A stretch of 64,000 bases of DNA from Liolophura sinensis (lineage: Eukaryota; Mollusca; Polyplacophora; Chitonida; Chitonidae): NCBI RefSeq assembly GCF_032854445.1, contig NC_088300.1, positions 22,055,608-22,119,607 on the forward strand, read 5' to 3'. The notes under the pieces are model-generated. The model saw only the letters and a program-made list of their open reading frames with translations. It ran no database searches and was not told where the DNA came from. A program made the position numbers and the translations under genes. Position 1 is the first letter of the stretch. The number at the start of each line of letters is the position of its first letter. This document shows positions 7,322-55,181 of the stretch, piece by piece.

Positions 7322-7533
7322 ATGGGATGCCACACTTCCTGCTGTTCGGTTCCAATCACTCCTCTGAAAAGAGGGTCAGAGGTCGACCAAAAGGTTATGG
7401 CAGAGGTCAGCTCCTCAATCGTTGCCGATCCTGAAGGTTTGCCCCTCACGGCTAGGGATATTTTCCGGTTAGGGAAATCTTGGAAAGGTATTAAAAGACA
7501 TATTACTGAAGCTGGAGTGGAAATGCTGATCCG
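7322..7533 (+). CDS. Globin-X-like first exon 1 (acylated N-terminus, helices A-B)
   Basis: ATG 7322 opens 70 codons plus two bases. The product starts MGCHTSCC: Gly2 and Cys3 fit N-myristoylation and palmitoylation, as known for globin X of fish and arthropods. Residues 41-71 (starting PLTARDIFRLGKSWKGIKRH) match globin helices A and B, with the invariant Trp54 of helix A. The exon ends GVEMLI + CG|gtaagt at 7533/7534, a strong donor in phase 2, exactly the ancestral globin B12.2 intron. Three sister exons lie at 23308, 48782 and 54988, all on +. The linker (residues 9-40) is unlike the others. The open frame stops two codons past the donor, so the exon cannot read on. The heme pocket must come from downstream exons that I did not find. 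A membrane-attached heme protein in redox or signalling is the known family role. Confidence 0.85.
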
Positions 7534-8092
7534 GTAAGTATAATATTTTATGTCTGGAATTCTGAGCACTAATTTCCCAAACACAACCTCATATATTAAC
7601 TTATAATAAAACAGTTTGAACTTGTTTATAAAAAGATCACACTGATGTCCGACACTGAGTTACCAAAAATAAATCAACACACACTAATCGTTGAAAAAGC
7701 TCTTGAAGCGCGTGAGGCATGTTATACAGGTAAAATAACTTCATGGAATGGTTGACTTTATTATTCCTGGCTTAACGCTACCTGGGCAGTATTACGGCCA
7801 TACTTTGTGGAGAGCTTTACGGAAAAACAGTGCAGAGTTGTCTGCAATTTCCAGATTCGCAAGCGGAAGTAGCCTGTTCTATGCTGGGCGAAATGTTATC
7901 CAAATCTCTCAACTGTTGACAGTTGCGCCCATCTGCCTATTGTGTTACATAGTTAGCCTATGTAGGACAGGATGCAACCACCTGTATTTATTCCTGAAGA
8001 GCCAGTATGATCGTAATCAGGGATTTACACTTTCTGGGTAAAGTATAAATTGTAGTGTTGAAAATTAGCACAAATAACGATAAAATTGTTAT

Positions 8093-8490
8093 TTAAATAT
8101 AATTATAGACGTACAGCATGGAGGGTAGAAGACCAGAGAAGGGACGAGAGTGTGGTAGCTGACAAATGGTCAGATGTAACTAGTGAAATACGGATTCCTG
8201 TGATTTTACCCCAATTAGGGCTTATTCTAACTGTTCATGTTACGCTTAAATAGTAGCACTAGCATCATGGCTTTAGCATAAGTAAAATAAAAATGCGGTA
8301 ATGTTGATTTCAAATTTATTAGACGTCACTGATCTAGAACTACTTAAAATGCTTTGTTGTCATCACATTTAACATACAGTAACATTAAAACAATGCAAAG
8401 GGTCCTGGCCTCGGAGATGCTTAGTCCACCAGCAGAATCCTAGTATGTGCAGGAATGCAATGTAATTATAAACGTACAGCATGGAGGGTA
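8093..8490 (+). repeat. Dispersed repeat family copy A, with 27-bp direct repeat at both ends
   Basis: Contains 'gacaaatggtcagatgtaac' (8161 region) and, further on, words whose reverse complement is found at 37205-37500 ('ggattctgctggtggact', 'ttaaatgtgatgaca', 'gtgacgtctaataaa'). A near-identical word, 'cgtacagcatggagggta', occurs in the same orientation at both ends (about 8111 and 8472), about 364 bp apart. This looks like a tandem-capable monomer rather than a classic inverted-repeat element. Confidence 0.75.
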
Positions 8491-9411
8491 AGTGTAATAG
8501 GGTAAATTTTAGGCTAATCCTTAATGGTCTGTTCTGACGACACGCAAAATTTCTCAAATTTAAACTTAGCTCTCTCGGATGACATTCATTGGGTCATGCT
8601 CTTCACAGCGCAAATCCCGCTTTCAATACAAAGCTTACATATCTGCCTCTAATTCTCATGGCTGAACTTTCGGCCACGTGAGGCACATCGGATGTTCTTC
8701 ACTTTAGCCTCATCACTTTAGTGGTGTTTTTTAGACAGGTCTTTAAAGATTGCTCACTAATAAAAGTGATTTTCACAGTTACTGTGAAATACTGTGCATA
8801 ATACATAGTAATATACCAAAGAGTGTTGCATTTGGCGTGTACATACCACTCAGCATTTGTTATATCTTGTGTGTTGTGTGACAGGTTCAATCAGCCTCAC
8901 AAGTTATTGCTGCAAACTGGTGTCAAGTTTATTCCATTAAGCACCTCCACTCTAAAGTCTTAAGGTTTACAGTGGGTATAATAGTCTTGTAAGTAAATAT
9001 GGACAGAGGCATTGTTGCATAATTGTGTCTACTTTCGCCTAATAACTTGGGGCTAGGGGCCATATATTCACTGCATTGAATTAAATGGACAGGTTTGATA
9101 TAATAAGCAACAGAGAAGCACAGTTTTATTATCGGCAACATATATACTGGCATGGTACACGATTTGGATGCTGATATAATTTCTCGCGTCTTTTGAATAC
9201 CGTTGAAAACTGTTACACCGTTGAATACTTCTCTTTGTATGATTCTGTCCTAAATTTGCGATTTACATGTTTTCTTAGTTCTATGGTGGATTTCTGTTAG
9301 ACGTCGTTTTGGCATCTGGCGTTGCGATTATTAGCCTTCCTAAAACATCCATCTTGGTTGATGTCTGGTATAATGTCCGTTTAGACATTAAAACATACTC
9401 ACATTTTAAAC

Positions 9412-9640
9412 ATTTATTTATTTATTTATTTATATGCGATCGGTGTATAACTCCGCACTTAGGATAACAGCCATGTTCATGAGTGGAAGAATGCGGAATG
9501 ACTGAAGTAAACCATCGCACTTCGCCAAGTCCATGGTAAACCTCCTGGCATAAAGTCACAGTTCATCATCCGGGAGTAGAATTCGATCATGCGATCTAAT
9601 TGGCCAGGAGCCGATTGAATGCTGACGTATGATGTAGTAA
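9412..9640 (-). repeat. SINE-like element, minus strand
   Basis: Starts with (ATTT)n (reversed tail), then 'cggtgtataactccgcact', and runs into a body ending 'ggagccgattgaatgctga'. Related in layout to the minus-strand SINE at 29655-29905. Confidence 0.55.
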
Positions 9641-10584
9641 CAGACAGAGAGTTTAAGACAGTGCTTTATTTTTGTCTCACATCATTTTCTGCTTCATCAC
9701 CTAAGCTTAGCGTTGTTCAAGATTTCTGGCATATAAATGATATATATGATATGATTTCAGACATATAAAGCGAATATATAGGGAGCAGAGTAAGCTCAGT
9801 CTAGCAATTTGCATTTCCGTTCAGCTGTACACTAGATTTCGACCAACGGTCAATATTTGTGATGTCATCTGGATAGACATTGGAAGACATTTACACCAGC
9901 GTGGTCGACTAGGCTTGCAAAATGGAGAGCTTGCAAAATGGCTTATTCTTCATCTTCAAAGTCCTCAAAGGAATTTGCGAAAATAAATTTTGGAGAAGTC
10001 GTTCAATTTGGTAAATTTTCACTACTGTGGTCTCAATACCAAACTAACCCAACTGATACCCTCTTGTACCTTGATCCACTTAGTATAGATCAGCTACATT
10101 GTCTGAGCTGGGAAATCGCCTGGAAACCGCACAAACAGATAACAAACATCAAGCACATCATGGTTCAACCTAGACCGCTTGTGTCGACACAACCTTCAAA
10201 GCAGTCACTCGATTAGATCAACACCTTTGTGGCATATTTTTTTCAACTAGCTCACAGCTTGTGGAATACATGTAAAGTAGTTAACACGATTAAAGCGTTC
10301 CCAGGGTAACAGACAAGCATTCTCCCAGGTGTTACATGAACATCTCTCACACGTGTATTACTGTACAGTCATTTAGGGTTTGTTACGATGAAATAACCTT
10401 TTGACCTTGTGCAGAGGTCATTTGATTCCTAATGGTGTCCATTCAAGGCTAAATACATCAAGGTCAGATCATTTTGTCCAGATCAGTAATTCCGTTCGTC
10501 CAGTTTAGTCTCATGACCCTGGCAGTAGAAGGCGCCAGAAGGAACATTGCACAGTTAAACGTTTGGAATTCACAATCATCACTG

Positions 10585-10627
10585 CCCCCCCCCCCAAACC
10601 CCCCCAACCCCCAACACCCCCACACAC
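10585..10627. repeat. Poly-C rich tract
   Basis: Runs of C broken by A, ending in CACAC. Confidence 0.85.
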
Positions 10628-11364
10628 TCGCATGCTTCCAATACTTCTTCCACATTAATTAGATCCAGGGTAGAGATCGTTAAATCACAGGCACCTGCAG
10701 ACGTTCTCTGGATGTGCCAACTGGTACCTGGTTAATTGTCTATAAAATGAGGTAGCCCATTTGTAAATGTCATTAGGGTTTGGCCTCCCAAATCATGGAA
10801 AGCAAGTCGTTAAGGGCCTGTGGTTCTTGAGTAGTAACATAATGCTATAGAATAGCACTGCTTTTCTGCTGCTGCGAAAGAGTTCGTGATTTCGTTATGG
10901 TAAGGGTCGGTATTTTGTTAACCGATACTGCAATCTCGGTTTGTTATATTGATGCACAAATTCACAGGTACTGTTGTCAAAAATCTTCACAACTGACTGA
11001 GGATGTACTGCATTGATCATGACCGCGTTAATCCTGTGTCAGTGTGCCTCCACTACGTCTAGCATAACAGACATCCGCAAAAGGCACCCAGAAAGACCTG
11101 AATCGCAAACAAACGTCGTGTTAGCGTTTGGCTATAGTGTGAAAGTGACCTTTTCCAACAGTTAAGGCATATTGCTTAATTTATGAAAAAACAGAGGCAA
11201 CACATAGACGAAAAGACGTAAACGTGTACAACGTTATTTCATGAGAAACTGATTGAAACTTAGGTGGAGAAGGTCGAAAAGTTCATGAGGTTTCCAAAGG
11301 AAAAACGCGGTATTTGTACGAAAAATTGTTTCCATCGTCTTTAAATATATATTATATTTTGCTC

Positions 11365-11470
11365 ACACACCTCCCCACGTATAGCTGGAGAGGAAGCCCG
11401 CATGAACTGGACTTGAACTCACAGCGACTGCATTGGTGGGCCATTGCGTCGCGCTATGAAAGCATGGGGA
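11365..11470 (-). repeat. SINE fragment, minus strand
   Basis: The reverse complement contains 'ccaatgcagtcgctgtgagt', 'tcaagtccagttcatgcggg' and 'cttcctctccagc', matching the middle of the SINE at 5894-6171. Confidence 0.75.
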
Positions 11471-12739
11471 TTTGATATCGTAATATTAAGAATATACAGC
11501 CTTGGTGTCTTTGGTATGTGTACTCCCATACACTCTGTGGTGCAAATGGCCGCTGCACGGCTCGCGTACTTCGACCAACATGAAGTAGTTTACCAGCTAT
11601 GTTGCTGTAACAGTTTATAGATTACCTCCTGCAAGACCCATCAATCACGAGCCCTCTGATACTGTCCAGAAACACCAGTTTATCCAGGAGCAGTGGTGAT
11701 ACCACTTATCGTGGACCGATGGTGAACCAGCAACACTTCATTCAAAGGTGTCAATTTCACTGTAACTTTACGCATAAAAGAGCCGTTATAACATTGGTGG
11801 ACCTCTGAATCTGTAAGTCGTCAGGGTGTTGGTAAACACCATCACCATAAAAATGTCCTCAACACTATCTCGGTTTTTCAGGGAATGGTTCGGTTGACTT
11901 AATAACCCTGGAGGCTGTATATACCTCAGTATTCTTCGTGTGTAATACGTGACTTGGGCTGGAGCAGGGGCGGGCCGGCTGTATATCAGAGCTAATATGA
12001 CATGTCAGCGTGGGTCAATATGATATGTTTATATGACTGACGTAATGAGATAGTATGTGGGTCAAAACCTGCTAGCAAAAGCCGCAATATTTACAAAAAC
12101 AGCATAAGCTTAAGACAAGATTATGTGGTTTGTGATCATTCTTGAACACATGTTTTTCTTGAACTCGGTATCTTCAGGTGTGTAACGTTACATAAATAAT
12201 TAACTTACATTTTTGCGGATTTAGAGGCTTGGTTGTACTCTGTACCGTTGGAGACTTAAGTGAAGTCGTTGCTTTCATTTAGTTTCAACGAAGTTTTCTT
12301 AAAAATTTGTAATGACAAGATTCCGAGAAATCAGCCAAGTAAGCGATCAGAAGAGATAATAAAATAATCACGTTTACTTAGACCAGATGTGAACAACACA
12401 AAAAATGTCTTCCTCGATCAAAGAATAAATGATTTAACTATCGCTTTTTTCAAAGGAGCACTAGAAACCCTATTACCTTCAGAAAAAACAAAAAATATGG
12501 CATACAAGAAATGTCATTATCCGTGTGGCTTGATTGCAACTTTGTCAGGGAGAGCTTTCTTTATTCGATTGATCATGAATTCAGACTTTGGTAAAGAAAT
12601 GCAGAAAAAGGACCTGGACTGCCTCCAAAGTGACAACTGAGTTAAAATGTCAAATATTATTACTTTTAGAGCAAATTAAGAAACGTAAACGTAGATATAC
12701 GCATGGCCAACACTGACAAAGGACATGCGATCTGAATTT

Positions 12740-12830
12740 GAAAATATATTTATTTAATCATTTATTTATTTATTTGATCATTTATTTATTAAATCGGTGT
12801 TTAACAGCGTACTCAGTTTTTTTGATTTTT
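12740..12830 (-). repeat. SINE 3' fragment, minus strand
   Basis: ATTT-rich stretch followed by 'cggtgtttaacagcgtactc' and 'ttgatttttacgacgg', the reversed 3' end of a SINE. Confidence 0.6.
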
Positions 12831-13169
12831 ACGACGGTGGACAGAGTGAAAGAAACCAGTATGGATTTGAAAACTCGAAAATTAATGTAGAAATTATTCT
12901 TTTCAGTTTGTGTTTTATTCCAATTATATATTTAGATACCCTCTTACAGTTTTGTCAAGAGTACAGCACGGAAAATCCATTATTTCTTTATTTTTTATTG
13001 GGTTGCGGTTTACCACCTTTTATAGAAGATTATTTTACTTAAACGAAGATTGTCAGTTTTATTGATTGATATTACCAGCATTCCAAGAGTAAACCATAGG
13101 TATTTTCATTCATTGCTTAGGCGTACCGAGAAACATTCTTACACGTAAAGAACAGAACTTCAGCCTACC

Positions 13170-13550
13170 AACTTCGATAGCCCTAGTTGGTAGAGCGTCC
13201 GCTTTGGGGATGGTAGATCCATGGTCAGGTCGCACCTAAGACCTTAAAAGAGGAAGTTGTAAGTTCCTCGCTGACGATCAAAACGAAGGGTGATGAACGG
13301 CTAGTTGATAAAGGGTCGTTCATCGAGGGTGATGAACGACTGGTTGACCCGTATTAGTATAATGGCTCGGGTCGGGCGACTTACTTTTCATCGGTAAGTC
13401 GTCTCAGTGAAGCAGCACTAGATGAAAGAGGGGTGAAAATCCGTCCTGCAACAAGGAGGCACATTACATGCACTCTAAGGGCTCCTTCGTCCTCATATGA
13501 CTGAAAAATCGTTAATTACGACATTAAACCCCGAAGCACTCACTCAGAGT
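13170..13550 (+). repeat. Second tRNA-derived SINE family with CACT tail
   Basis: Head 'agttggtagagcgtccgct' resembles a tRNA box A; body includes 'gaagcagcactagatgaaag' and 'cctcatatgactgaaaaatc'; ends 'gacattaaaccccgaag' plus CACTCA repeats. Different from the main SINE. Partly degenerate, with an internal duplication around 'gggtgatgaacg' (about 13288 and 13329). Confidence 0.7.
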
Positions 13551-16500
13551 GTCAGCCTGATTGAGCTTTATACGCACGTGTCATATCCGTGGACGCCAAG
13601 TAATCTTCAGCAAGTACCATGTAAGATCCCCTCCACAAGATCCAATCGAGCGATTTCGGCCGCTTATTATACCGCCAACGCATACGTATAGCAGTGGGAC
13701 CGGGGAGAATCGCGAGCTTCAATCCATAAACCTGGAGCTGATATAAGGAAACGGTAATCCCCGCAGCTAACACGTTCATCCTCAGTCTTTTGAAAATGAA
13801 TCTGGGGTAAGTAGCCAAGAGCAGAGAGGCTTGCTGATAAAATCTGCATCGATCCAAATGACTATCCCCAGTGAGGCTAGAAAATCAGTGGTTTAGGGCT
13901 GAGCAGATCATAGTAAGTACAGAAACTTAATAAACACATCCATCGACAATGATTTTACCGCGAAAAACAAAAGGTACAGTTTTTCGGAATTTGGTTTTCT
14001 ATGTTCAAACTTACTTTTTAGCTGATCAGTGCGAGCGGATTTGATTTGCTAGGCTAAACTGTTCAAGTTCTCGCAAGAGAGGCTGATTCTTTACAGCTCA
14101 CGGTTCAATGACATCATTACAAAGCACGTGTAAATTAACAAGCAGTACAATTTAGTAGCTTTCAATATCGTAAAAATTCACATAAATATTTAGATAATAG
14201 TATGTATCTTTCGAAAAGAAGCATTATTGTAAATTCTTGCAGAAACCCGCCTTTCGAGGTCATGCATGATATTGCAGTTGACATACGGTAAAGCCTACAA
14301 TGCACCAGCTCACGTAAAAAAAATGCTGTATTAAGAAAATTTGTAGTTTGTTGAGGGTACATTCACTGTATGAGCCAAACGTGCAAAGTTGGTTCAAAAG
14401 CCATTAGCACTGTTCCCTCACTGGTCCTGAACTTGCTTTGCTCATACAATCCACAGTATATACCCATGGGATCCAAGAAACCTTTTCCAGAAGGACGTCC
14501 ATTAAGTAAATATCTGTTCATTCCAGGCTCATTCCAGAATCTCATTTAAGAACGAATTAATAAGCCTTTCCATGGGGCCGTCATTAGAACGGCATGAAAC
14601 CTTGAACCATAAACTGCCACGCTTGCCATGACATGTTTATTGGCTATTTCTTCATTTAATGCGCGTCTGTCGCTTTCTGCTTGGGTTCGCTGGATACCCG
14701 TTCCGTGGTCTGCCATCTAGATCTCTGAATAATCTTTTCCAAACACAGTTAGATGTCTTCCACGAAAGTACAACCCATGAAATAATCTGGCCTATTCAAC
14801 TATGCAAGGCTAGAAATCAATCATTTTAACTATTAGATGAATCATTATTACCTTGTTTTCACACCATTTGTCTGAGTATTCACATTAATAAATTCATTGT
14901 TTGTCAAATACTTCCGCTTATACTTATATTTGTCGAGGTTTGGTGATATTCTGGTCTTATAAAAATGCAAAGTGACAATAATTGTATTTGACTGATGAGT
15001 TCCTAATATGGAGCGACATATGGAACGAACACTACATGGTCTTTATTCTGGAAAACCCAGTATGGAAACAAAAATTGGTAAGGACAGTTGTCCTTGATGT
15101 TTAATTACTTTTTCGATTACGTACCTTTCGAAACACTTGCTCCATTTGTCTAACCATTTTTATTTTCTCTCGTCTGACGCAGACTCTATATTTCATGTTG
15201 TTCCATGGTTTAAGGAAAGTTTGTCCACACGTTTTTGTAAAAGGTGTCAAGGACTCCAAAGAAAATCACATGCTATGCTCCAGCCTAAACCTGACCAGTC
15301 CACCACCAATGTACTTTTTGAAAGCAGTACTTATTTACTGTACGCCATTTTAAATCCCACTCGGTGACATTCACCGCACTTTTATATGCGCCTGGAGAGT
15401 GCGTTTCGTTTAACACACATACGAATGCCTCAAGGATGGTTTGTAATTTTTTGTTCCATACTTTTGTTTTGCGAATTTGAAGGCTGTACACTGTATCAAA
15501 ATGGATTTATCTTCGTCGGATTTAAATTCGAGCGTTTTTTGTTTTTCTCGCAAAAATGGCGGATCTCCTAAGGAGTTCACACTCGCCATTCTGGTCAAAG
15601 AAGACTAGACTGAAATTAACACCAGCAACCCGGTATTAAATGCAACGAATCAAGAGTTTTATAATGCTTACATCACTTCACCAGGCATGCTCTATCAGCT
15701 TTAATATCAGATTTTTAGAGCAATGCGAGGTTTTCCCTGAGAACATTCTCTGGTGCCAAATATCGGCGAACCCTTACACAAATCTGCATACAAAACTTCG
15801 ACTGAGTCCTATTATATAATCTGTCTTCTGCTTTATATGAATGTCTACCATAAATTGGTAATGTGTCCAGATTTCTTTAAACGAGCTATATCAAGGATGC
15901 GAAAAAGGTTGCCAAGATATTATGGCTGGTATTATGCTCGTGAAATGTATGTAGGCTAGTTTAGTTTACAGATAGATTCGTGGCTATATAAATGCATTTC
16001 TCCGGAATTCCCCACTTGCCTTCGCTTCATCCTATAGATAAATAATGCAGACGACGTCTTCAGATCAAGATGGATGACCGCAGCGTTATTTCAAACTGCA
16101 TGACTCGGAGTATTGATTCCGATCCACTGTACCCATACAGTCTTGTAGATGTATAACAGGGCCTGTGGAGATCTATTGACGTGTAAACACGAGAGCGCCA
16201 CGGATGAATATACTGCAGATACAATGTATATCTATCATATAATGCACATACATCACTGAAGATAACTATATTACAAAACTTAGGTTCCATACAAGGCTTG
16301 GTGGGTTTGAAATTGAACATGGAGGTATTTGAATACAGCAGCAATACAGGAACGTAAAAGGTAAGAGACCCGTTAGATGGGAACAAATGACGAGACCTTC
16401 GTGAAATAATAAAGCGGTATATTTTTTTATAATAAGTGATTTTGAATCAGTCCAGCAAATCACTTGGATATAAACTTAGTACTGTTATGAGATGTCAGAT

Positions 16501-19120: not shown

Positions 19121-19200
19121 GATTTTTTTATTTGGTGTTTTACGTCGTATTCCAGAATATTCCCAGTTCTTTAGTTTTGCACATAGTCCGTTGTCGCATA
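19121..19200 (-). repeat. SINE 3' fragment, minus strand
   Basis: 'ttatttggtgttttacgtcg' and 'tattccagaatattc' are the reverse complement of the SINE 3' end. Confidence 0.65.
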
Positions 19201-23307: not shown

Positions 23308-23519
23308 ATGGGCTGTCGATACACGCGGTGCCCCACCCCCGACCCTCCACCAATAAACAGTGACGTAAAGCCTGATATCTTGCCATTCCAACCCGTCATA
23401 GCGCCCGTCAAAGCCGACCCTCGCCTCAGGTTAACGCCGAAAGAGGTATTCAGGCTGAAAGGTTCCTGGAAAGGAATTAAACGAAAAATGGCACCGACAG
23501 GTACGGAAATGTTCATCAG
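23308..23519 (+). CDS. Globin-X-like first exon 2 (acylated N-terminus, helices A-B)
   Basis: I chose ATG 23308, giving MGCRYTRC, because the start then matches the MGC of the three sister exons and has a strong Kozak context (gcgccATGG). In-frame upstream ATGs at 23200 and 23299 would destroy the Gly2/Cys3 signal. 70 codons plus two bases: a Pro-rich linker (PTPDPPP), then residues 41-60 (RLTPKEVFRLKGSWKGIKRK) with Trp54 of helix A, and helix B ending GTEMFI + AG|gtaagt at 23519/23520. The donor is strong and phase 2, the globin B12.2 position. Length to Trp54 is the same as in first exon 1, although the linkers share little. Myristoylation and palmitoylation are predicted. Downstream exons were not found before the next first exon at 48782. 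Confidence 0.85.
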
Positions 23520-26500: not shown

Positions 26501-27306
26501 TCTTCATTCAACTGAACTGTATTTAAAAAGGTATTGTTAACATTGTAAACTAGCAATGTTTGTTTGTTTTACAACCACTGCCATAAAAATGTTCTGTACT
26601 AGAAATAGGTGAGAGCAGGATGGGAAGGAATACAATGTATGCCTTGATCATCTGCATTTAGTCTACAGTACATTTTCACAAACTAGAGTCACTCTTACTT
26701 CCTAACTGTCTGCAATTATACTTTCGAAAATATCTTAAACCATTCTGCTATTCAGACTCACGTGTTTTTATATTCTCCGTTTGCAAACGTTATTAATCCA
26801 CGGGAAGAACAATTCTATTTATTTTTTGACGATTCTACTAGAATTACTACGACAGAACAAAAGCGTAGGTGTAACACCAGATCTGCGTTAATGATTCCGT
26901 GACTGGGAGAGCCTTACATACATGCTGTAACTACTGCTTTGTAAATCCATTGTCAGATGGACAGACAATCCATCCAGTCACGCAGAGCCTTTTTCAAACC
27001 ACCGCAAGGCGTTCTCCAGGAAAAGCTGTACCGAGGAGCTTACTGATGTTTGTTCTGAGGGTTCGTGAGGCTACCGTAAACCGCACGCTCCACTCTCCTC
27101 ACTCTCGCGGGTCCCACTTTACCACTTCACCTATGGCCTGCAGGTTTGTGTGTTCGTGCTTAATTGTATGCCGTGTTATCTAACCATCAATAGCCAATCG
27201 CTCAGCTGACATGTGATATTGGGGCTGATTTCTGGCCTCGAGTATACCTGGACGAAGGTGAACGCCAGATAACCTCGATCTGAGAGGATAACTCTAGAAG
27301 CCGGAG
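23520..27306. other. Unassigned stretch after globin first exon 2
   Basis: AT-rich, no recognisable gene or repeat. I looked here for globin exon 2. Candidate acceptors (for example near 24034 and 25713) gave peptides without globin features. Confidence 0.45.
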
Positions 27307-27307
27307 G

Positions 27308-27870
27308 TGGGAATGTAGTTTTAGTTAATGATTTACATCCTAGGGAGGTTGGAATGTAGTTTTAGTTAATGATTTACATCCTAGGGAGGTTGGATTGTAG
27401 TTTCAGTTAATGATTTACATCCTAGGGAGGTTGGATTGTAGTTTTAGTTAATGATTTACATCCTAGGGAGGTTGGATTGTAGTTTTAGTTAATGATTTAC
27501 ATCCTAGGGAGGTTGGAATGTAGTTTTAGTTTTTGATTTACATCCTAGGGAGGCTGGATTGTAGTTTCAGTTAATGATTTACATGTTAGGGAGGGTGGAT
27601 TGTAGTTCTAGTCTATAATCCACACTTTTCGCAGGTCAGAAGTAATTTTGGTTAATGATTCATACCTTAGGGATATTGGAAAGTAGTTCTAGTCAATGGT
27701 CAACTTCCTTGGGAGGCTGGGTTGTAGTTTTAGTCAATGATCCACAGAATTGGGAAGCTGGAAAGTAGTTTTAGTCAATAATCCACATCTACAACATAGA
27801 GTTCTAGTCTATATGCCTTATCTGTCGGGGTTGGAGTGCAGTTCTAGTCTATCAGCCATATCCGTCGTCC
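27308..27870 (+). repeat. 41-bp minisatellite, seven clear units then decayed units
   Basis: Unit begins gaatgtagttttagttaatg and ends cctagggaggttg. Units start at 27311, 27352 and so on every 41 bp. Copies after about 27600 are increasingly diverged ('gtagttctagtc'). Confidence 0.92.
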
Positions 27871-28186: not shown

Positions 28187-28198
28187 TCAATGAGATTT

Positions 28199-37204: not shown

Positions 37205-37920
37205 CGGATTCTGCTGGTGGACTGAACATCTCCGAGGCCTGGTTCATTTGCACTGTTTTATTTTATTGTGTGTTAAATGTGATGACATCACAGTAGTTTG
37301 AGTAATTCTAGACAAGTGACGTCTAATAAATTGTAATTAACATCAATGCATTTTTTTTACCTAAGTTTGATTAAGCCATTGTGTAAGGGCTCATGCAGTT
37401 TGCTACTATTTAAGCATATACATGAACAGTTGGAATAAAACCCTAAATGAGGTAATTGAAAAGAGGCCGTATTTCACCGGTTACGTGTTACCATTTGTCA
37501 GCAATCACACTGTCGTCGCTGCTCTGGTTTTACTCCCCACAATTTCACCGGTTACGTGTTACCATTTGTCAGCAATCACACTGTCGTCGCTGCTCTGGTT
37601 TTACTCTCCACAATTTCACCGGTTACGTGTTACCATTTGTCAGCAATCACACTGTCGTCGCTGCTCTGGTTTTACTCTCCACAATTTCACCGGTTACGTG
37701 TTACCATTTGTCAGCAATCACACTGTCGTCGCTGCTCTGGTTTTACTCTCCACAATTTCACCGGTTACGTGTTACCATTTGTCAGCAATCACACTGTCGT
37801 CGCTGCTCTGGTTTTACTCTCCACAATTTACTGGTTACGTGTTACCATTTGTCAGCAATCACACTGTCGTCTCTGCTCTGGTCTCATCTATTGGAGTATA
37901 TAGTTTAAGCAATGCTCTTT
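37205..37920 (-). repeat. Dispersed repeat family copy D, expanded internally
   Basis: 'ggattctgctggtggactga', 'gtgacgtctaataaattg' and 'ttcaccggttacgtg' match, inverted, the copies at 8093-8490 and 52240-52470. The part around 'accatttgtcagc' has become a 71-bp tandem array (37473-37898). Confidence 0.85.
37473..37898 (+). repeat. 71-bp minisatellite, six units, open in all three + frames
   Basis: Unit starts ttcaccggttacgtgttacc and ends ttttactctccacaat. Units start at 37473, 37544, 37615, 37686, 37757 and 37828. The first five are almost identical; the sixth is diverged. The unit has no stop in any + frame. Since 71 is not a multiple of 3, the frames rotate and three long overlapping frames (up to 166 codons) cross the array. 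These are not evidence of a gene. Confidence 0.95.
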
Positions 37921-41907: not shown

Positions 41908-41927
41908 TAAATCTGGACACTAATCCT
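41908..41927 (-). repeat. Right terminal inverted repeat of transposon 2
   Basis: TAAATCTGGACACTAATCCT, followed by TTAA. Confidence 0.9.
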
Positions 41928-41931
41928 TTAA

Positions 41932-44275: not shown

Positions 44276-44625
44276 GTGAAATGATGGAGTGATATGGTGG
44301 AGTGATATGGCGTGAGTAATATGGTGTGGTTCATATCTTGGATGTTAAGGTGGGTGATATGGCGGAACAGAAATGTCGAGGTGATATGGTGGGGTGATAT
44401 GGCGGAACAGAAATGGTGAGGCGATATTGTGGGGTGATATGGCGAAACAGAAAAGATGAGGTGATATGGCGGTGTGATATGGCGGAGCAGAAATGGTGGA
44501 GTGATATGGTGGTGGGATATAGCGGAACAGAAATGGTTAGGTGATATGGTGGGCTGATATAGCGGAACAGAAATGGTGAGGTGATATGGTGGGCTGATAT
44601 GGTGGTGTGATATTACAGAACAGAA
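44276..44625 (+). repeat. 40-bp minisatellite, degenerate
   Basis: Units of about 40 bp of the form tgatatggcggaacagaaat + ggtgaggtgatatggtgggg. GATATGG itself repeats within each unit, suggesting growth from a shorter repeat. Confidence 0.88.
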
Positions 44626-45126
44626 ATGCTGTTAGATGATGGGATGAGAGGACGCACATGTCGGTGACGGGCCACACTGGATACTTACCAGGTTTTGCGG
44701 CAGTGAGTATGAAACACGGACCCAATATTCTATAACGTTCTCTGTACCTCCTAACCGAGTTATTTGCCGTACAAGAGCAGTAATTCAGTAGTCCTCGACA
44801 TAATATCGAGTCTGGGATATCGTATATAGTCATGGGTTCGATTATCTCACGCCTAATAGGCAGTTTGTTAGAGGTTAGCCTCAGAACCGAGTCAAATTCA
44901 ATTTCCCCTCTATAAGTGGATAATAACATAGCATACGTAACGGGGCCGACGTTGGCGGATTCTCAGAGTCCTTGGATTGAGCTTCTAATCATGATCGATA
45001 GGCTACAATACTTCATGAATAATATAACCGAGCGGTTTCCAGTTCCTGTCATCTGATATAGGCCAGACATAGAGTAAGGCCATGTTGATGTATCGTACGC
45101 TGTCTTATAAGGCATTAACGATGTGT

Positions 45127-45149
45127 GGTTGCAAAAAAAAAAAAAAAAA
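45127..45149. repeat. Poly-A tract
   Basis: Simple A run. Confidence 0.85.
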
Positions 45150-45398
45150 CGGACTCACCAATGGTTACTAGTTGTAGACACAGAATCCTTTACTACGTGT
45201 ACACATAGAAACTCTTACCTTTCAGACAGCCTTCCATGAGCATCTCAGAATCCCCCACAGTGGAGAAACCCACAAAATCCACAACGCATGCATCCACTGA
45301 ATGCCTCACTGCATGTATTATTCATTGTCATAATCCGTTAAAAACCCACATGATCCATTATTGAGTAAAACTTTAATATACTATTGCCGTGTTAACCC

Positions 45399-46090
45399 CT
45401 GCAGAATTCCTTACTGTGTAGAAGCTCACATAATCTCTCACGTTGTTGAAGCTTACATAATCCTTTACTTTGAGTGCAGTTACAGAATTCCTTACTGTGT
45501 AGAAGCTCACATAATCTCTAAAGGTGTTGAACCTTACATAATCCATTACTTTGTGTGCAGTTACAGAATTCCTTATGGTGTAGAAGCTCAAATATTCTCT
45601 AAAGGTGTTGAACCGTACATTATCCTTTACTTTGAGTGCAGTTACAGAATTCCTTACTGTGTAGAAGCTCACATAATGTCTAAAGGTGTTGAACCGTACA
45701 TAATCCTTTACTTTGTACGCAGTTACAGAATTCCTTACTGTGTAGAAGCTCACATAATGTCTAAAGGTGTTGAACCGTACATAATCCATTACTTTGTGTG
45801 CAGTTACAGAATTCCTTAATGTACAGAAGCTCAAATATTCTCTAAAGGTGTTGAACCGTACATTATCCTTTACTTTGAGTGCAGTTACAGAATTCCTTAC
45901 TGTGTAGAAGCTCACATAATGTCTAAAGGTGTTGAACCGTATATAATCCATTACTTTGTACTCAGTTACAGAATTCCTTAATGTATAGAAGCTCAAATAT
46001 TCTCTAAAGGTGTTGAACCCTACATAATCCTTTACTTTGTACGCAGTTACAGAATTCCTTACTGTGTAGAAGCTCACATAATCTCTAAAT
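45399..46090. repeat. 81-bp minisatellite, eight and a half units, coding-like on both strands
   Basis: Unit starts ttacagaattccttactgtg and ends actttgtgtgcag. Units start at 45399, 45480, 45561, 45642, 45723, 45804, 45885, 45966 and 46047. 81 bp is 27 codons, so frames stay constant: 153 codons on + (45361-45819) and 235 on - (45373-46077) are open with a 27-residue repeat. Units 3, 6 and 8 share variants (caaatattctc) that units 4, 5 and 7 lack, hinting at a 243-bp higher-order pattern. I do not regard the frames as genes: no start context, no signal peptide, no flanking exon. Confidence 0.95.
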
Positions 46091-47214
46091 CTCTATTACG
46101 TTTGCTTTATCGCATCCGTATCATTTGTCCCTGCAGTCAGTTGACTCAAGTCTTCAAGTGGAAACTTGCTGTAACTCGTGCTTTACAATTATTTTGTCGA
46201 CTGCCTTTAAAGTTTGCTCAGTTGGAAGCGATCTAATGGCATTGATCTTCAAATAACTGGTGTTATGCTGTGTGGACGTAATTCCGAGGGGAGATAATCC
46301 TGGGCACTTGGAGTGTAGATCGTTCACGAATGAATCAGCGTGAACCGTGCAGGCTGCTGTTTAAGTTAAGTCCTTCCTGCCGCAATGGGATGCCTGCATG
46401 CATAGATTTATTTCTACATGTTGAACAAGTCTAAAAAGTCCTGCTGTATGGAATACAATATGCTCTGTCTTTTAACCCTCGTTTCTGGATATATAGCTCA
46501 AAAAGTACTGTAGCACGAGACCGAAACTAAACTTATTTCATGCAGCATGTAACACAGTATGTAGGGCAGTGTTCAGTCGTTGAATTATTACATATATACA
46601 GAGTGATCAGAAATTGTTGAGGAAAGCGTAATACCAGGAAAATGGGATAAGAGGGTGAGAGGAGGAGTCGATAAGCGACCATTAAGTACATCAAGGAACC
46701 AGTGGCACGAACAGATCATGGCGTGTTTTTCTTATATGTGTGTTTCCTGATGCTTTCCATATAATGTACACAAAAAGAGACTGAATTCTCAAATTTCAGA
46801 CTTAAATTGAGTATTGTAACACATAAAACCTGGCGTTCACTACAAATATCTTTATTTTGTATTAAGGCTTGAGCGTTTGTGTTGGTGTACATTATAGGTG
46901 AAAAGAGAAGACCACAGTGAGTAATGCGTTTTTTCCACCTCGACGAGATCATATGGTTAAACCAATATTTATATATTTTGATCACGTGTAATTGATGACG
47001 TAAAATAATGGTACATCCGGGTTCTCTCTGACGGAGCAGATTTACAGCTGCTGTCGGAAGTTCGTTAACCATTGATAAGTGAGGTTTTGAATACAGCATC
47101 TGTTAGCTGGGTCGTGATTGCAAGTCAAGAGGTACGTGTTATGCACCTGACGAGGCGCGGTGTGTGTCCCCTGCCTTGTTGCCTTTACCGACAATCTTCA
47201 CGGTCATCACGTGA
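46091..47214. other. Unassigned stretch
   Basis: No gene or repeat recognised. The minus-strand frame at 46716-47099 (127 codons) has no known domain. Confidence 0.4.
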
Positions 47215-47275
47215 ACTGTTCTTGAACACAACGCAAAACAATCAAATAAATGAATGAATAAATAAATAAACATAT
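47215..47275 (+). repeat. SINE 3' end remnant
   Basis: 'ctgttcttgaacacaacgca' and 'aaacaatcaaataaatg', then AATA repeats. Confidence 0.5.
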
Positions 47276-47769
47276 AAATGATAGTGTAACATTTTTTGCA
47301 TGCAATACTTGTTATCTATAGTTGATTTCTGGTGGTGCTTTGTCCTCAGGATAGAGCGGCGAGTAACTGTGTTCCGGAATCAATACAACCTGGATTCCAG
47401 CTAATCGTATCTAACCTCTTACAGCTTTAATAAGCATTGAAGACCACGTGGTCGAACATCTTGTCAATTATCCCGTGACCTTAGAGATACATGACTGACC
47501 AGCGTCACCTTCCACAGAACTGATGGTTCCGCAGTGACCTAAAGGCCAAGTGTTTGCCATCTGAGTGCCTTATTGAACGATAGGCTTAGTAGACGGCGTT
47601 GAGGTCTTTACTGTTTGATAAGCCATCAAACCCCATAGGCTCACCCATAACATTCCAATAAGCACATGTACTCACCATTGGACCCTCAAATCAAAATTAT
47701 CATTGACTCTAGGGGTCTGAAGACTAGTGATAATCACGTGACATTATACCCGCCCAATGGCTGGTATAT

Positions 47770-48129
47770 TTGATGCAAACATTTGGAACAGCCAATACCG
47801 CATGGAACCATTTGACATGCCCAAGGCCAATGTCTGCTCAAGAGATGCGCTCGAATGGCATTTACCATGTTCAAATGGACAACAGCTGGCAAGATCTCGC
47901 CTTTGCTGTTGCAACTTCACAATTAATCATCTTTTGCGAGCACATGGGAATGGGTGGTGAGAACGTAGAAACGTATATTCCGCATATCCGCAAACTTCAA
48001 GATGAATGGTTGGCACGTAACCTTGAAGCTTTATACCTCACCAACGGTTGCCAGACGTATCAACCACCTGGGTTACGTATGTGTCAGAAGCAGAAGATAG
48101 GAGAGCCAAGCGATGAATGCAGCCGTTAG
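47770..48129 (+). CDS. Unrecognised 119-residue open frame
   Basis: An ATG-started frame with a mixed, protein-like composition, including MDNSWQDLAFAVATSQLIIF and EHMGMGGENVETYIPHIRKL, and a Cys-containing tail. I do not recognise a family, signal peptide or membrane segment. It lies 0.65 kb upstream of globin first exon 3, on the same strand, but its stop at 48127-48129 excludes it from that exon. Frames of this length occur by chance in a window this size, so it may be nothing. It could also be a remnant of a transposon gene. Confidence 0.2.
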   Translation: MMQTFGTANTAWNHLTCPRPMSAQEMRSNGIYHVQMDNSWQDLAFAVATSQLIIFCEHMGMGGENVETYIPHIRKLQDEWLARNLEALYLTNGCQTYQPPGLRMCQKQKIGEPSDECSR

Positions 48130-48781
48130 CCAGCCATACTCAAACCTCACGAGATGGGGCCTCATTTGGCCTGCTCTGATAAAGAGCTAATCAACCGAGC
48201 CTTTTAATCGATGCAAGTTAATCGGATACCAGTAGACTGGAATAGGAAGTGAAATTAACCAACTGAAACTGTCAGGTTTAATTTGCACACACTCTGCTCT
48301 GTAGGCCAGCCAAGCTTTTTACGTTCGTGCTCCTCATTCGGCGACGATCAGGGCACGTATTGACTCGGCACGTCATTAGCTGGTCACTGGTGTTACCTGG
48401 CTTCGCGAGCCCATTGTCCCATCCGTGAAGCGCAACCGCTAGTTAAATAATCCTGCCATGGGTTCCGGCCTTATCCCTTCCTTCTCTAAACATTGGAATC
48501 AGTTTCCCCGGGGAAAGCTCGATGATAAATTCACCTGTGAATGTTTGGACGGAAACCTGACGCAATAAATAAAGATACACGGTCGTGATGACTGGCGTAT
48601 GCTTAAATGTAAGTCGAACATTCTTAAATAAACTCTTCCCTCTGATTAACTTCAGTGTAGATTATATATCCGGTAACAAAACTAATCCTGATTTATTAGA
48701 CAGCAACTCGATCAGCCAGGGTAAAGGTATGCTGTCTGGGTGAGTCGGGCGCCTGACCTGTTATCACAATAGGTGAACAGA
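48130..48781. other. Region upstream of globin first exon 3
   Basis: No repeat recognised. Should hold the promoter and 5' UTR of the exon at 48782. AATAAATAAA at about 48564 could be a polyA signal for something upstream. Confidence 0.35.
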
Positions 48782-48972
48782 ATGGGCTGCTGTCCGCCCT
48801 CTGGCATTGCCCCTGCAGAAGGTAAACCTAATCTCGACCAGAAGCCACCCCAGCAAATTGTCGCGAAGGACAGTCGTTTAAATCTAACGCCAAAAGAATT
48901 GTTCCGCTTAAAAAAGTCTTGGAAAGCTGTTCAGCGAAATATAGAGGAAACGGCTATTGAAATGATGATCAG
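48782..48972 (+). CDS. Globin-X-like first exon 3 (acylated N-terminus, helices A-B)
   Basis: ATG 48782 (acagaATGG, acceptable Kozak with G at +4) opens 63 codons plus two bases, starting MGCCPPSG. Gly2 plus Cys3/Cys4 fit myristoylation and double palmitoylation. The linker is shorter than in first exons 1 and 2. Residues 33-52 (LNLTPKELFRLKKSWKAVQR) are globin helix A with Trp47, and helix B ends AIEMMI + AG|gtaagt at 48972/48973, a strong phase-2 donor at B12.2. Helix B is more acidic here (NIEETAIE) than in the sister exons, which have NMEIAGME or MAPTGTE. Downstream heme-pocket exons were not found before the next first exon, 6 kb away. Confidence 0.85.
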
Positions 48973-49288
48973 GTAAGTCAATAAAGACTTTTATTATTTT
49001 AAAACTTTTAAAACCAACAAGATAAAACAGTTCCAGGCGGTTCACAGGTATTGATTTTTGTTCATAAATTATAAGGGTTTTATATTAGCGTGACACACAT
49101 GGCACGGTGTATTATAGTCAGCCCTTGTTATTTAATGGGTTGGTTTCTCCTAGTTGAAGCGCACCATGGCACCTCTGGCGGTGTCACCTGGTGCGAAGAG
49201 TAGATCTTACAATTTCTGTTCAGGAAGGTTACCAGCCATTGCCACCTACCATTGGTGAAAATGACGATGGCGAAATAAACGACCTGTT

Positions 49289-49371
49289 GGAATTTATTTA
49301 TTTGATTGGTGTTTTACGTCGTACTCAAGAATATTTCACTTATACGACTGCGGCCAGCATTATGGTGAGTG
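49289..49371 (-). repeat. SINE 3' end, minus strand
   Basis: 'tttatttgattggtgtttta', 'cgtcgtactcaagaatattt', 'cacttatacgactgcggcc'. Confidence 0.85.
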
Positions 49372-50989
49372 GAAACCTGTGTTGAAATAATGCCGTTTCT
49401 GACTTCAGTCAAAGTTTAAAGTCTCGTCATAATGTTTAGTTTTAGATACTGGAATGTTTATTCATTTATTCAAAGGTGACATTTTGAAGTGGTTCAACTT
49501 TTAATGCCTAGGGCTCAAAAGTTAGATCTTAAATAGTGTGTGCAATTTTAACCTAAGTCTGAAATGGTTTTGTGGATCGGCTCCTGGGTCTTGTCGTTAA
49601 GTCATTCTGTAACTTCCAGGGGTAAAACGTAAAACCATAAATCTTAAAGGTGGAGAAAATATAAAAATTACATAAAGTTCAGTTGAAAGAGAACAAAATC
49701 TAGGTTTAAATATGGTCTTCAATATTTTTTCTTTTTTTTTTATTAAACAGAAAAAGGCACTTCAAAGTAATTTTTGTATGGTTGGTATTTGGGACCACCT
49801 CGGTATTTATCGTTTTTGTTTAATAATGTTATAAATAAGGATGTAGCACATGTTTAATAAACATATTTGCACTACAATTTGGTCTTTTCAGCTAACAAAT
49901 GTGTTCAGCCTGGATTTTGATCATATTAATATTTTAATATAATCATAAATATTATTGTAATTCCGATTAAAGGCATGTGTTTGGGTGTAAACAACAAATT
50001 TACAATCAAATAAATTTATTAGACGTGTATCATATCCTTATTTAAGAACAGTGTAAAGACTATATGGTCCCTAAAACCCATCATACAAAAATAGTTCAAT
50101 GATCCTTTTCTCCTGGAAAGAAAAAGTAGTTAAAAAATAATTAAAGGCTATATTTGCAAATAAGATTTCAGGCTCTTTCATCTGATTTTGGCATCATTTT
50201 ATGTTTTAGTCTCCTTTAAAAGGACAATCTATTTGTTCCTCTAGTTCCTGTGTTTTCAAGATTAATTAGTAGCAAATCCTTGCTGATTTGCCGTAGGTAA
50301 ATTTTGAGTCCGTATTGTTGGTTTTAATCTTACGAACATCTTTGCGTGGTTTGTAATGCCGCATTGCTCACGGGATAAAGTGCTATATTCACATCGGAAC
50401 ATAAGTCGCCTATGGCGTAGCACAATTCCTTCAATATCCAATGAGGGCCTGTTTTACCTGTGCATTTTATCGATGGAAGTATCAACGAAGGACAAAGAAA
50501 ACAGGCTTTTCACGTTGGCTTTGTGCGGTGGCATTTCGTGTAAATTTTCACAGAAACACATCGGATGTTGTTGACAGACGCAAACACACAAAATAAAAAA
50601 GAAACAGGGTCAGATTATGTTGTTGCGAAATGAAAATTGTCAATATAAATCTGTTGACTGAGTCTAAGGCCATGGTTGTTCATCTTCAGCTGGGATAGAG
50701 CCTGTCAATACGAACAGCTGTCGGCACGATGTTCCGACACCGAACACTCATGGATTTCTACTGATATATGTTGACACGTCTGTAGATTCAACGCTAGAAT
50801 CCCGTGTAACAGAAGGTGCAGTTGTTGATCGTGGAAAGTGTTCGTCTTCAGCGTTTAAGCACGTTGCCGTCGAAATTGTCTCCAAAGACAAGGCCTGATG
50901 ACTTTGTGGTGAAATGTTGGTAGAGGCGTGAGGTGAGACACCATAAGTAGTAAGCGAGATTCCCACTGATGGGGTCAGTATTTTCAAAG

Positions 50990-51290
50990 GCGGTGACTTT
51001 AAATATAGTGACCACACAGCGGTTTTAGTAATTCTAGACCAGCCACGTCCATTTAATTGCAATTAACATCGCTGTATTTTTTTTACCTAATTCTGCGTAA
51101 GCCATGGTGCTTGGGGGCGTGCTATTACTTAAGCATTTACATAAACAGTTATAACAAAACCCTAACTGAGGTAAATTGAATAGAAGCCGTTTTTCACCAG
51201 TTACATGTGACTATTTGTCAGATAAATACATTGCCGTCGCTGCTCTGATTTTACTCTCTATGCTGTACGATATGATATAAATTAATCTTC
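50990..51290 (-). repeat. Dispersed repeat family copy E
   Basis: Aligns to copy D (37270-37545): 'tagtaattctaga', 'attttttttaccta', 'aaaccctaactgaggtaa', 'ccgtcgctgctctg'. Carries only one copy of the segment that is a 71-bp array in copy D. Confidence 0.82.
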
Positions 51291-51699
51291 AATGATATAA
51301 TTAGTATCTTGTAGTGTAAAAGATATAAGCATTCAGGAAGTATGTCACGTAGGCATTAAAACTGTATCCTAACCATAAAGAATGCCACATACAATGCAAA
51401 TACGGTTAGAAATGTGGCCAACAAACAGAAATACGCTTTCTATTTGTAATGCAATTTGTAAGTTTTCATTGGAACTTCTCAGTGATGTTCGTCTCCCAAT
51501 ACGGCGTACTAGTTACACGTTGGCAAGTTCTTCAGTAACGTGCAAACAATTCTAACGTTTATTCCAGCCCCATGGTTCCCTCCGCACATTCAATTTATTA
51601 CCATCGTGTGAGTGAACATTTCCAGAGTTTTGTGTTAGAACACACCAATAAAAGAAGTAAATAAATAAATACGTCTATACGTAAGGGAGGTTATCAAGT

Positions 51700-51790
51700 A
51701 CCTGGCAAAAAAGCAAAACAAAACAAAATAAAAAAACAAGACCCCCCCCCCAAAAAAAAACAAAAAAAAAACAAAAAACAAAGCAAACAA
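51700..51790. repeat. A-rich and poly-C low-complexity tract
   Basis: Runs of A broken by C, with a C10 run near 51742. Confidence 0.85.
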
Positions 51791-52239
51791 ACAGTGGTAT
51801 CTAATAGGCTCTGTCTGGAATCCATGCACTAGACAAACACAATCGATTTACAATCCTTGTAAGTACCGGCGTTGTATTTTCATGTCAGTGTCACCCTCGT
51901 CTCTACAATGTCGGTTTTTACCGACCTCATAAACCTAATTTCCACTCTTTACAAAAATAACCAGCACCATCTGTAGTCATATAACATGGCCTGAACAAAA
52001 TGCATCACTACCCACAGCATTTTGATTCACAGGTCAACATTAATACCGCGATCGCTACAAGGATGTGGGGGTTGAAAACAAGTTTTATTATAGCTTGGGT
52101 CTCCCATCAACCCGTTTTGCTTTGGAGCTGTATTTGTAGTTAGCAGTTGTGATTTTCCTTGTGGTTTTGGTTCTCGTTTAGGAGTCTTGTGCAGAAATGA
52201 ATAAGAAAGAATGAGTTGTATAATAACATAGGTGTGTAT

Positions 52240-52470
52240 GGGTGATAGCATAGAAAAGTGTAGAGTATAGAGAGCAAAACCAGAACATCGTCAACAACAT
52301 GATAGTTGACAAATGGTCTCACGTAACCGGTGAAATGCACCCCATTGGCAGTTTACTTTAGTAAAGGTTTTATTCTACTGTTCACGTAAATGCTTAAATA
52401 ATAGCCACTTACACACTCCCTGGCATTATGGCTTAAGCAGAATTAGGTGAAAGAAAGGCATTAGACTTAT
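52240..52470 (+). repeat. Dispersed repeat family copy B
   Basis: 'agttgacaaatggtctcacg', 'taaccggtgaaatgc' and 'gttcacgtaaatgcttaaat' match copy A at 8160-8260 in the same orientation. Confidence 0.8.
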
Positions 52471-53499
52471 TAGACTTTACCGGTTACAAAGTTACAGAGT
52501 TACAAAAGAAAAGGCTGCGGTGTCATTTCAACCTGTATTTAACTGTCGCACAGGCACGTCATTTTTAGACAAAGCGTCAAAGTTCGGAATTCCAGTGCCT
52601 TACCAAACCTCGATCCTGTCATATGATTTTGTCAGACAGCTTGGATAGGTTTACACACTTGGATGCCCATGAAGATTTGTTACAGTAGTATAATTTGATT
52701 AGTAAAAGAAACTGTCCGTAAGAAATTTGTTACATATCTAATAGAAAATTGTTATGAAAGAACCAGTTAAATTCTGAGGCGAATGGATTGCTCCATTGCT
52801 GAATTTCAGTTTTATATGAGGGAATATGTTACGTACAGACAACAAAACCCATCCAATCCACGAAGGAATTGAATTTCCATCTTGGTCGAAAGGTGTTTAT
52901 TATGTGACAATATAAGGGCTTGATTAATAGAGAACTCAGGTAGAAAACTGAATCATACCTTCCTTTTAGGATAGTCCACGGCGGACTAAATTGTATTTGA
53001 TGATTTTATTGTGAAAGCCGCTCTTACCACAGCGCATGCGTCAGATTTATACAAAGATTGTATTATCACATTCTGTATTCTCATCTGAATGCACCGAGAA
53101 GGTTCAGACTAAGCCCAGGTTGTGTTGCCTAGAGGAATTACATACTCACGCTTGCTTTACTGGCATAACGTTGTTTGCAAAGGCTTGGAGACCGATATCT
53201 GCAAGAGAAGATTCTGCAATTTCTCTGCAGTAATAAGATGCTAAAACCTTTTATACTTTCGCTTCCTGAAGCTGGAATAAATACTTATATATGGTAAAGT
53301 TTATAAAAGACTACAGCATTGAGAGTAAAACTAGAGCAGAATAGTTGGTAAACCCTATCTCTAGTAAGTTTGTTTTGTTGTACTAATTCATGCAAATGTT
53401 TAAACAGTATTAGCTTAGACGCCAATTATAGCACCAAGGATTAAGTAGAAAAAATGCGATGTTGTTAATTGCAATTTTTTAGAAGTCCCTTGTTTGGAA

Positions 53500-53710
53500 T
53501 TACTCAAAATGTTGTATTTCCAACAAAGTAAAGATTTACAAAAACACAATGCAAATTTACCCGAGGTTCCAAGACTTAGTCCGCCCACAGAATCTTGGTA
53601 TACGGACATACAGTATAAAAGAGAATAAAATCATGGCAGCGATAACATAGCGATAGTTGGCAAACGGTCGCTATACACATAGACCTGTAAATGTAAGAGT
53701 ATCAAATGGG
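53500..53710 (+). repeat. Dispersed repeat family copy C, diverged
   Basis: 'gacttagtccgcccacagaa' matches copy A's 'gcttagtccaccagcagaat' (8419 region); 'ggcaaacggtcgctatacac' is the diverged core motif. Confidence 0.65.
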
Positions 53711-54987
53711 TAGGAGAGCGGCCAAAACACGTTCTAAGGTAAAACTGATCGTCGGCCAGATTACAAAGGTCGCCCAGTGTTTTAATTCTCTTAAACATAT
53801 GGAGTATATCATTGTGGTATTGTCGTGTGTCCTTTTTTTTTAATTCCGTAAATGGGGGTTATTTTCCATTATACCGTTTCCGGAGGAGATGATAACAGTT
53901 ATCTATTATTCACTATTCCAACTCCTTGCTACCCAAGGCTTCAAGCATCACACGCTCTTTCTACTTATCATGTACTTTTGATTTTTTTCACTATCGAATC
54001 AGAAGTATTGATTTTATATTCAGATTGCTACACTTTTCATTCTAAATCATACTGGGAGATCGATTCGCCACCAGCGAGGTAGACTATAGAGATGAATCTC
54101 CAGTGTTTCATTCAATAAAAGTAACTATAGTTCTTATGATGTGGTAGACCCTAATTCTAATGGATTTTCTTCTAATTCTTGTGATGGAAATTTGAGCATC
54201 AGTCCCCTTGTATTTCATTTAAGATGGCCACATTGATTACAGTAATCTTTCATGTTCAACACTACATTTCAAGAAAGAAAGGCGCGGATTTCAAGAAAAA
54301 ATACGAAATAAATCACATAGCACTTAGCGACGAATGACGAGTTTCCTTGAAAGGCGTATCCGCTTTCCATAGATGCCCTTTTCTCTTTGACAGTCGGAAG
54401 ACACGGATAGTCCACCTACACTATATATAGCTGGATCAACTAGCAAGGGCAGATTCTTTAGTCCTAGGTATGCAGCACTGAGTCACTCGTGTCATTTTGT
54501 CTCCGTTACAGTTGGAGAATTGGAGCATTACTTTGTCATCGATCCGGGTTGTTGGTGCATTGGAGACGTAATGAATCGCCTTGCGTGTTACATAAACGTT
54601 ATATGTGTGTATTGGCGCACTGTGGTGATTTTCCCATCTTGCCATGTTTGACTGTTCTTAGGGAATCCTGTTCATGAAGCAGCGAAGAGGCACCTCTATG
54701 TCTCTCTGGCGTCAACGGTGTTTGCTCTCGTTCGCAGCGCACCTCATTAAGACAATAATGCTACTTAAATGCCTCATCTAGGCTAAAAACAGTGTCATTA
54801 GCCTTGGCAGAAAAAGGTTCGATGTTTCTCCTCCAGATGTCGTCCTGTCTGTGCCACTAAACTCAAATTTGTGCTCTTTCCTTGAACGGTTGACTATATG
54901 CAGCTTATCTAGCGATCATCGTTGAAGGTTTAATAAGACACCATTTTTAGTGCCATCTGTTTCTGTCTCAAAAATCGCTTACTGATA

Positions 54988-55181
54988 ATGGGTTGTCGGT
55001 TCTCCCGTAAATCCAAATCAGATAGTATCAGGGATGGACTAGAACAGAATTTTAACGCCTTACACAAGCTTCATTGTGCACCTGGCTTGATGCTCACTCA
55101 AAGAGATGTGTTCCGCCTTCAGAAATCTTGGAAAGGAATCAAGCGAAACATGGAAATAGCAGGCATGGAGATGTTTATAAG
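54988..55181 (+). CDS. Globin-X-like first exon 4 (acylated N-terminus, helices A-B)
   Basis: ATG 54988 (gataATGG) opens 64 codons plus two bases, starting MGCRFSRKSKSD. Gly2/Cys3 are followed by several basic residues, a combination typical of membrane-held acylated proteins. The linker ends near residue 33. Residues 35-54 (MLTQRDVFRLQKSWKGIKRN) are globin helix A with Trp48, and helix B ends GMEMFI + AG|gtaggc at 55181/55182, phase 2, the B12.2 position. Of the four, its helix B is closest to the general globin-X pattern (G-x-E-M-F-I-R). If the cluster shares one set of downstream exons, they should lie right of here, most likely beyond the window; I saw none between 55182 and 64000. Confidence 0.85.

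Follow-up and report, generated by a model that had tools for sequence, protein, structure and literature searches.

The 64,000-base stretch of the Liolophura sinensis genome analysed here (the window; contig NC_088300.1, C6 for short, C6:22055608-22119607) holds four similar coding first exons of globin type, designated A to D. Together with a fifth first exon (E) beyond the window, they very probably belong to a single globin gene spanning about 102 kb, in which five tandem alternative coding first exons are followed by single shared exons 2 and 3. From its sequence the locus is best read as alternative coding first exons of the UGT1 and protocadherin layout, here in a globin gene. The observations made at the sequence level concern exon content, reading frame, splice phase, protein constraint, the exon counts within the reach of the searches, and the fit of the first exons to the shared exons. 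Genome-wide searches covered 609,464,459 bases in 632 contigs.

Both strands of the window were scanned for ATG-GGN-TGY starts that open a frame of at least 20 further codons. Exactly four matches were obtained, all on the forward strand (71, 71, 64 and 65 codons for A, B, C and D), and these recovered the positions 7322, 23308, 48782 and 54988 at which an earlier note on the window had placed four globin first exons. Exon A (7322-7533) begins MGCHTSCC, has Leu at B10 and ends at the donor CCG/GTAAGT; exon B (23308-23519) begins MGCRYTRC, with Phe at B10 and the donor CAG/GTAAGT. Exon C (48782-48972) begins MGCCPPSG and has Met at B10 and the donor CAG/GTAAGT, and exon D (54988-55181) begins with the basic anchor MGCRFSRKSK and has Phe at B10 and the donor AAG/GTAGGC. 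A predicted intron starts at 55182 on the same strand and leaves the window at its end (64000).

The note had also described a shared architecture, which was seen in all four exons: Met-Gly-Cys, a linker, and helices A and B with the helix-A Trp. In a six-row alignment of first exons, no variation is seen at Met1, Gly2, Cys3, the Trp of helix A and the final Arg. The common splice position B12.2 in phase 2, likewise claimed there, was borne out, as the GT donor splits an Arg codon in 4/4 exons and this Arg aligns with an Arg of neuroglobin. By the same alignment the exon boundary falls at B12, two residues after B10. Helix labels were assigned by alignment to a neuroglobin stretch and follow neuroglobin numbering.

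The remaining parts of the gene were located outside the window, in a contiguous 164-kb region without any N, and are given in window coordinates extended past 64000. The fifth first exon E (83859-84058; C6:22139466-22139665), with Phe at B10, shared exon 2 (106432-106663; C6:22162039-22162270) and shared exon 3 (109538-109720; C6:22165145-22165327) are all on the forward strand. Exons E and F (the first exon of a sister gene, below) were matched independently by a first-exon profile built from A-D, against which A-D score by construction. When spliced in silico, all five donors joined the exon-2 acceptor in frame, and the resulting isoforms had 201-208 residues; the second intron is in phase 0. 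Introns conserved among globins lie at B12.2 and G7.0.

Transcripts starting in A-D might instead bypass the globin exons, either ending early as anchored helix A-B peptides of 64-71 residues or joining non-globin exons. A short product could arise, given that read-through of each donor meets a stop within a few codons. Against this, a phase-2 boundary kept at B12 and the core residues present in helices A and B make sense only if a globin follows, and the shared one is the only compatible exon 2 detected downstream on the same strand within the 164-kb region. We regard such a bypass as very unlikely.

Similarity to globins was examined on the spliced isoforms and on the first exons by themselves. 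Pfam Globin (PF00042) matched 5/5 isoforms with 56.6-57.8 bits (cut-off 22). The match starts close to the exon junction (residues 60-67), lies mostly on shared exons 2-3, and therefore says little about the first exons themselves. The closest solved structure to isoform E was PDB 5ziq (E 8e-30, 107 bits; next structure 2e-9, 41 bits), which we take to be kumaglobin of the tardigrade Ramazzottius (the title of the PDB record is "Globin protein"). This alignment spans isoform E residues 31-186 and therefore covers all three exons. Each of the four window exons, aligned alone to the 5ziq stretch, gave E values of 4e-8 to 2e-10 (one-sequence database, composition correction off), so that the globin similarity proposed for the four peptides held up in the spliced forms and in the first exons alone. 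Each first exon A-E alone aligns through 5ziq residue 37, and exons 2-3 alone start at residue 38; the score rises from 77 bits for exons 2-3 alone to 105-113 bits with a first exon, and the junction is gap-free. In these alignments, each first exon fits the same shared globin exons.

Exons 2 and 3 were sought between the first exons and throughout the genome. No exon 2 was detected among 2202 open reading frames (ORFs) of the window with a profile built from 20 globin stretches of the same genome (best E 1.1), and none of the 25 places listed by a Pfam globin search of the genome lies within the window. With the three family members left out of the profile (17 stretches left), both exon 2s of the region still stood out at about 5e-18 in a set of 7535 ORFs, in which the next-best ORF had an E value of 0.18. 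A tblastn search found no exon 2 in the window and no exon 3 between exon A and shared exon 2, and blastn for exons 2 and 3 over that same interval gave as its best piece only 36 bases on the opposite strand (E 3e-4).

In the whole genome, searches with three different first exons listed an identical set of seven first-exon places, to which one query added an eighth (C6:3559371, E 1.08), close to another globin. With a full-length query 28 places were listed: the seven first exons, exon 2 in three copies (E 2.9e-48 to 3.5e-15), exon 3 also in three copies, and a remainder of weaker matches, mostly to other globins. The two first exons outside the main gene belong to sister genes F and G. Gene F (exon 1 135529-135333, exon 2 120523-120292, exon 3 115550-115410, reverse strand) is inverted, tail to tail with the five-first-exon gene, and has one exon of each kind, which join as a single open frame with GT/AG ends. 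Gene G (C6:31.67 Mb) starts with Met-Gly-Cys and has a single first exon, its three exons forming one open frame. Because seven first exons but only three exon 2s and three exon 3s were listed, the ratio of first exon to exon 2 to exon 3 among the listed matches is 5:1:1 in the main gene and 1:1:1 in F and G. The earlier note had proposed a locally expanded globin family, of which the local expansion stands, with the first exon and not the gene as the probable unit of expansion: five copies precede a single exon 2 and a single exon 3.

These counts bear on the possibility that every first exon starts a globin gene of its own, complete with private exons 2 and 3, which would make four or five tandem genes. 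Tandem arrays of globin genes are common, and eight globin matches were found within about 105 kb elsewhere on the same contig (C6:69.35-69.46 Mb; 69353344-69458344), probably a tandem globin cluster. A control on one 8-kb stretch of that cluster found no first exon by the simple pattern. The annelid Alvinella likewise has five adjacent kumaglobin-like intracellular globins, five units in one cluster as in the chiton; in the available part of that report they are described as five proteins or genes, whereas the chiton units are read as five first exons of one gene (PMC12403961). Separate chiton genes are nevertheless contradicted by protein profiles, tblastn and blastn, which detected no exon 2 or 3 between A and shared exon 2, and by the three exon 2s and three exon 3s listed genome-wide, with no N in the region. 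This explanation was rejected on these grounds, and we regard it, too, as very unlikely. An assembly gap hiding exons 2 and 3 was dismissed as well, since the 164-kb region has no N and no spare family exon 2 or 3 was listed elsewhere.

Constraint on the first exons was estimated by the Nei-Gojobori method for the 21 pairs of the seven first exons, using the 34 codons that precede each donor. The proportion of synonymous differences (pS) was 0.67-0.98 and that of nonsynonymous differences (pN) 0.15-0.38, with pN far under pS in 21/21 pairs and lowest (0.15) in the pair E-F. Corrected synonymous divergence (dS) was undefined for 14 pairs and 1.7-3.1 for the other seven, which means that synonymous sites are saturated or close to it. 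In a neutral simulation started from exon E, the ATG, the ORF and the GT were all kept in 984/20000 runs at 0.25 substitutions per site, and 15/20000 runs remained intact at 1.0 substitutions per site. By these comparisons, purifying selection acts on the first exons. With pN far below pS and neutral survival rare, the first-exon copies are therefore old and have been kept as protein.

Partial duplication can strand 5' exons, and A-D could on that account be non-functional leftovers of earlier gene duplications. Dead copies are disfavoured because pN would have climbed toward pS over a mostly dead history, whereas pN is far below pS in every pair, open frames and donors are retained, and a neutral copy rarely stays intact. 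Dead fragments were accordingly rejected on constraint (pN against pS and the neutral simulation), and we give them as little credence as separate genes. Chance ORFs were ruled out by the homology of the first exons and the constraint in 21/21 pairs.

Several points weigh against a single gene with five first exons. All of the evidence is genome sequence, and an assembly error is formally possible. The genome search scores the best candidates only, which makes the exon counts lower bounds. Two weak traces of further exons were found: the 36-base piece (26489-26454, reverse strand) is similar to the third exon of gene F (E 3e-4), and a 22-residue ORF at +115828, downstream of exon 3, matches about 14 exon-2 positions (E 0.18-0.4). 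Outside the family, the full-length query had its best matches at C1:61016821 (E 5.5e-12) and C6:3559985 (29% identity, E 2.9e-5). A tree built from the 40 C-terminal residues of the seven first exons together with the kumaglobin stretch had no well-supported branch among its five inner branches. Use of exon A would require an intron of about 99 kb. Finally, no 9-mer, with one mismatch allowed, is common to the 500-base stretches upstream of all seven first exons, and a TATA-like heptamer was found within 600 bases upstream in 4/7 of them.

The lack of a common upstream motif neither supports nor excludes separate promoters. Pieces of 33-198 bases recur in some of the 3-kb upstream stretches, mostly those of A, B, C, F and G and chiefly 1.0-1.8 kb before the ATG, with one further small piece common to D and E, one to D and G, and one of 145 bases common to A and F in the first introns. 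These shared pieces were taken for putative dispersed repeats.

Under the one-gene reading, each first exon would have its own promoter in front of it. The donor of the cap-proximal exon would be spliced to the one exon-2 acceptor, with any intervening first exons skipped, as is described for UGT1 and the clustered protocadherins. Exon choice would leave the pocket residues of exon 2 and the C-terminal helices of exon 3 unchanged, and would vary the anchor beginning Met-Gly-Cys, the linker, helices A and B, and residue B10 of the distal pocket. By alignment to the neuroglobin stretch, shared exon 2 encodes Phe at CD1, His at E7, Val at E11 and His at F8. The variable first exon supplies B10 (Leu in A; Phe in B, D and E; Met in C), a residue that affects ligand binding in globins. 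Promoter use, splicing and an effect of B10 on ligand chemistry are inferred for the chiton gene.

The N-terminal anchors of the five first exons were compared in a similar way. Gly2 and Cys3 are present in 5/5 first exons A-E, and palmitoylation at Cys3 is a prediction. Candidate N-myristoylation sites were judged by the PS00008 pattern, which A, B, D and E and the sister exons F and G pass and which C fails (Pro6). The claim that all four window exons have predicted dual-acylated N-termini was thus correct as to Met-Gly-Cys (4/4) and slightly too broad for the exon at 48782; a membrane anchor itself remains likely. The anchors differ among A-E because net charge (0 to +3) and the number of Cys (1-3) vary within residues 2-12. 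We infer from these N-termini that the isoforms may be acylated and attached to membranes. In zebrafish globin X, both acylation sites, Gly2 and Cys3, are needed for membrane targeting, according to the part of the paper available (PMC3176823). Gly2/Cys3 acylation and the B12.2 intron are also described, in the available sections, for globin X and the membrane-bound globins of clades II-IV (PMC3176823, PMC7771090); the chiton gene has the same intron position, and its acylation at these residues is predicted. Unlike these globins, it has a single exon 2 preceded by five predicted alternative first exons.

The layout itself has known counterparts. UGT1, GCNT2 and the clustered protocadherins likewise have tandem coding first exons and one shared downstream set on the same strand, as described in the available portions of two papers (PMC1885805, PMC3325998). 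These are unrelated protein families, and the variable chiton exon provides a likely lipid anchor and globin helices A-B; promoters and splicing are, unlike at the UGT1 and protocadherin loci, only predicted in the chiton. The chelicerate sDscam genes also have tandem 5' cassettes in an invertebrate, with promoter and splicing choice and a shared 3' part, where the cassettes have two or four exons and encode immunoglobulin domains, not globins (PMC4835542, in the sections available). Among mollusc globins, two alternative first exons and promoters were proposed for HbI of Lucina pectinata; as far as the accessible text goes, these variants alter the 5' untranslated region only and give the same protein, whereas the chiton first exons are coding and the protein would change (PMC4732748).

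None of the literature matches listed, which were partial texts of open-licence papers in PubMed Central (PMC), described alternative coding first exons in a globin, which is no proof of absence. The available sections of a paper on arthropod globins (PMC7457136) contain no passage on alternative splicing, alternative promoter, first exon or isoform, and the genome paper on five chitons (PMC12005716) contains no word beginning "globin". The closest solved sequence to chiton isoform E is that of the structures 5ziq and 5zm9, presumably kumaglobin. The chiton family has His at E7 and Val at E11, whereas 5ziq has Ala and His in these two columns, so the distal ligand may have moved.

Other features of the window and of related loci were recorded. 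The nested-gene check passed 15 window ORFs through Pfam and gave two matches, MFS_1 and THAP (172 ORFs of at least 75 residues are present in positions 1-112000; the Pfam search covered the 15 window ORFs and the globin exons). The first is a 346-codon ORF at 1659-2696 on the forward strand (MFS_1, 39.3 bits; cut-off 33.4), a transporter-like neighbour upstream of the array. The second is an ORF at 4219-4557 on the reverse strand with a THAP DNA-binding domain (51.4 bits), perhaps of a transposon or a host gene. No Rfam match was obtained in the window. Tandem repeats lie in the predicted introns at 45402-46089 (81 bases), 37471-37882 (71 bases) and 27303-27779 (41 bases). At C1:61016893-61017240 a globin domain was found in a 260-codon ORF with Met-Gly-Cys-Ala-Thr-Ser upstream in the same frame.

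Globins are a textbook case of diversification by whole-gene duplication. At the chiton locus, diversification seems confined to the first exon, at the conserved B12.2 boundary, and the B12.2 intron would therefore be a module border, with the anchor and helices A-B (including B10) on one side and the remaining heme pocket on the other. It is possible, though somewhat less than an even chance in our judgement, that promoter choice swaps the membrane anchor and part of the heme pocket (B10) while E7, E11, F8 and CD1 stay constant, yielding membrane sensors or enzymes with differently tuned oxygen or nitric oxide chemistry at different membrane addresses. The locus would then be a natural swap experiment on B10 and membrane anchoring. 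If this is true, differences between tissues in the use of the gene's five forms would offer a way into the role of membrane globins.

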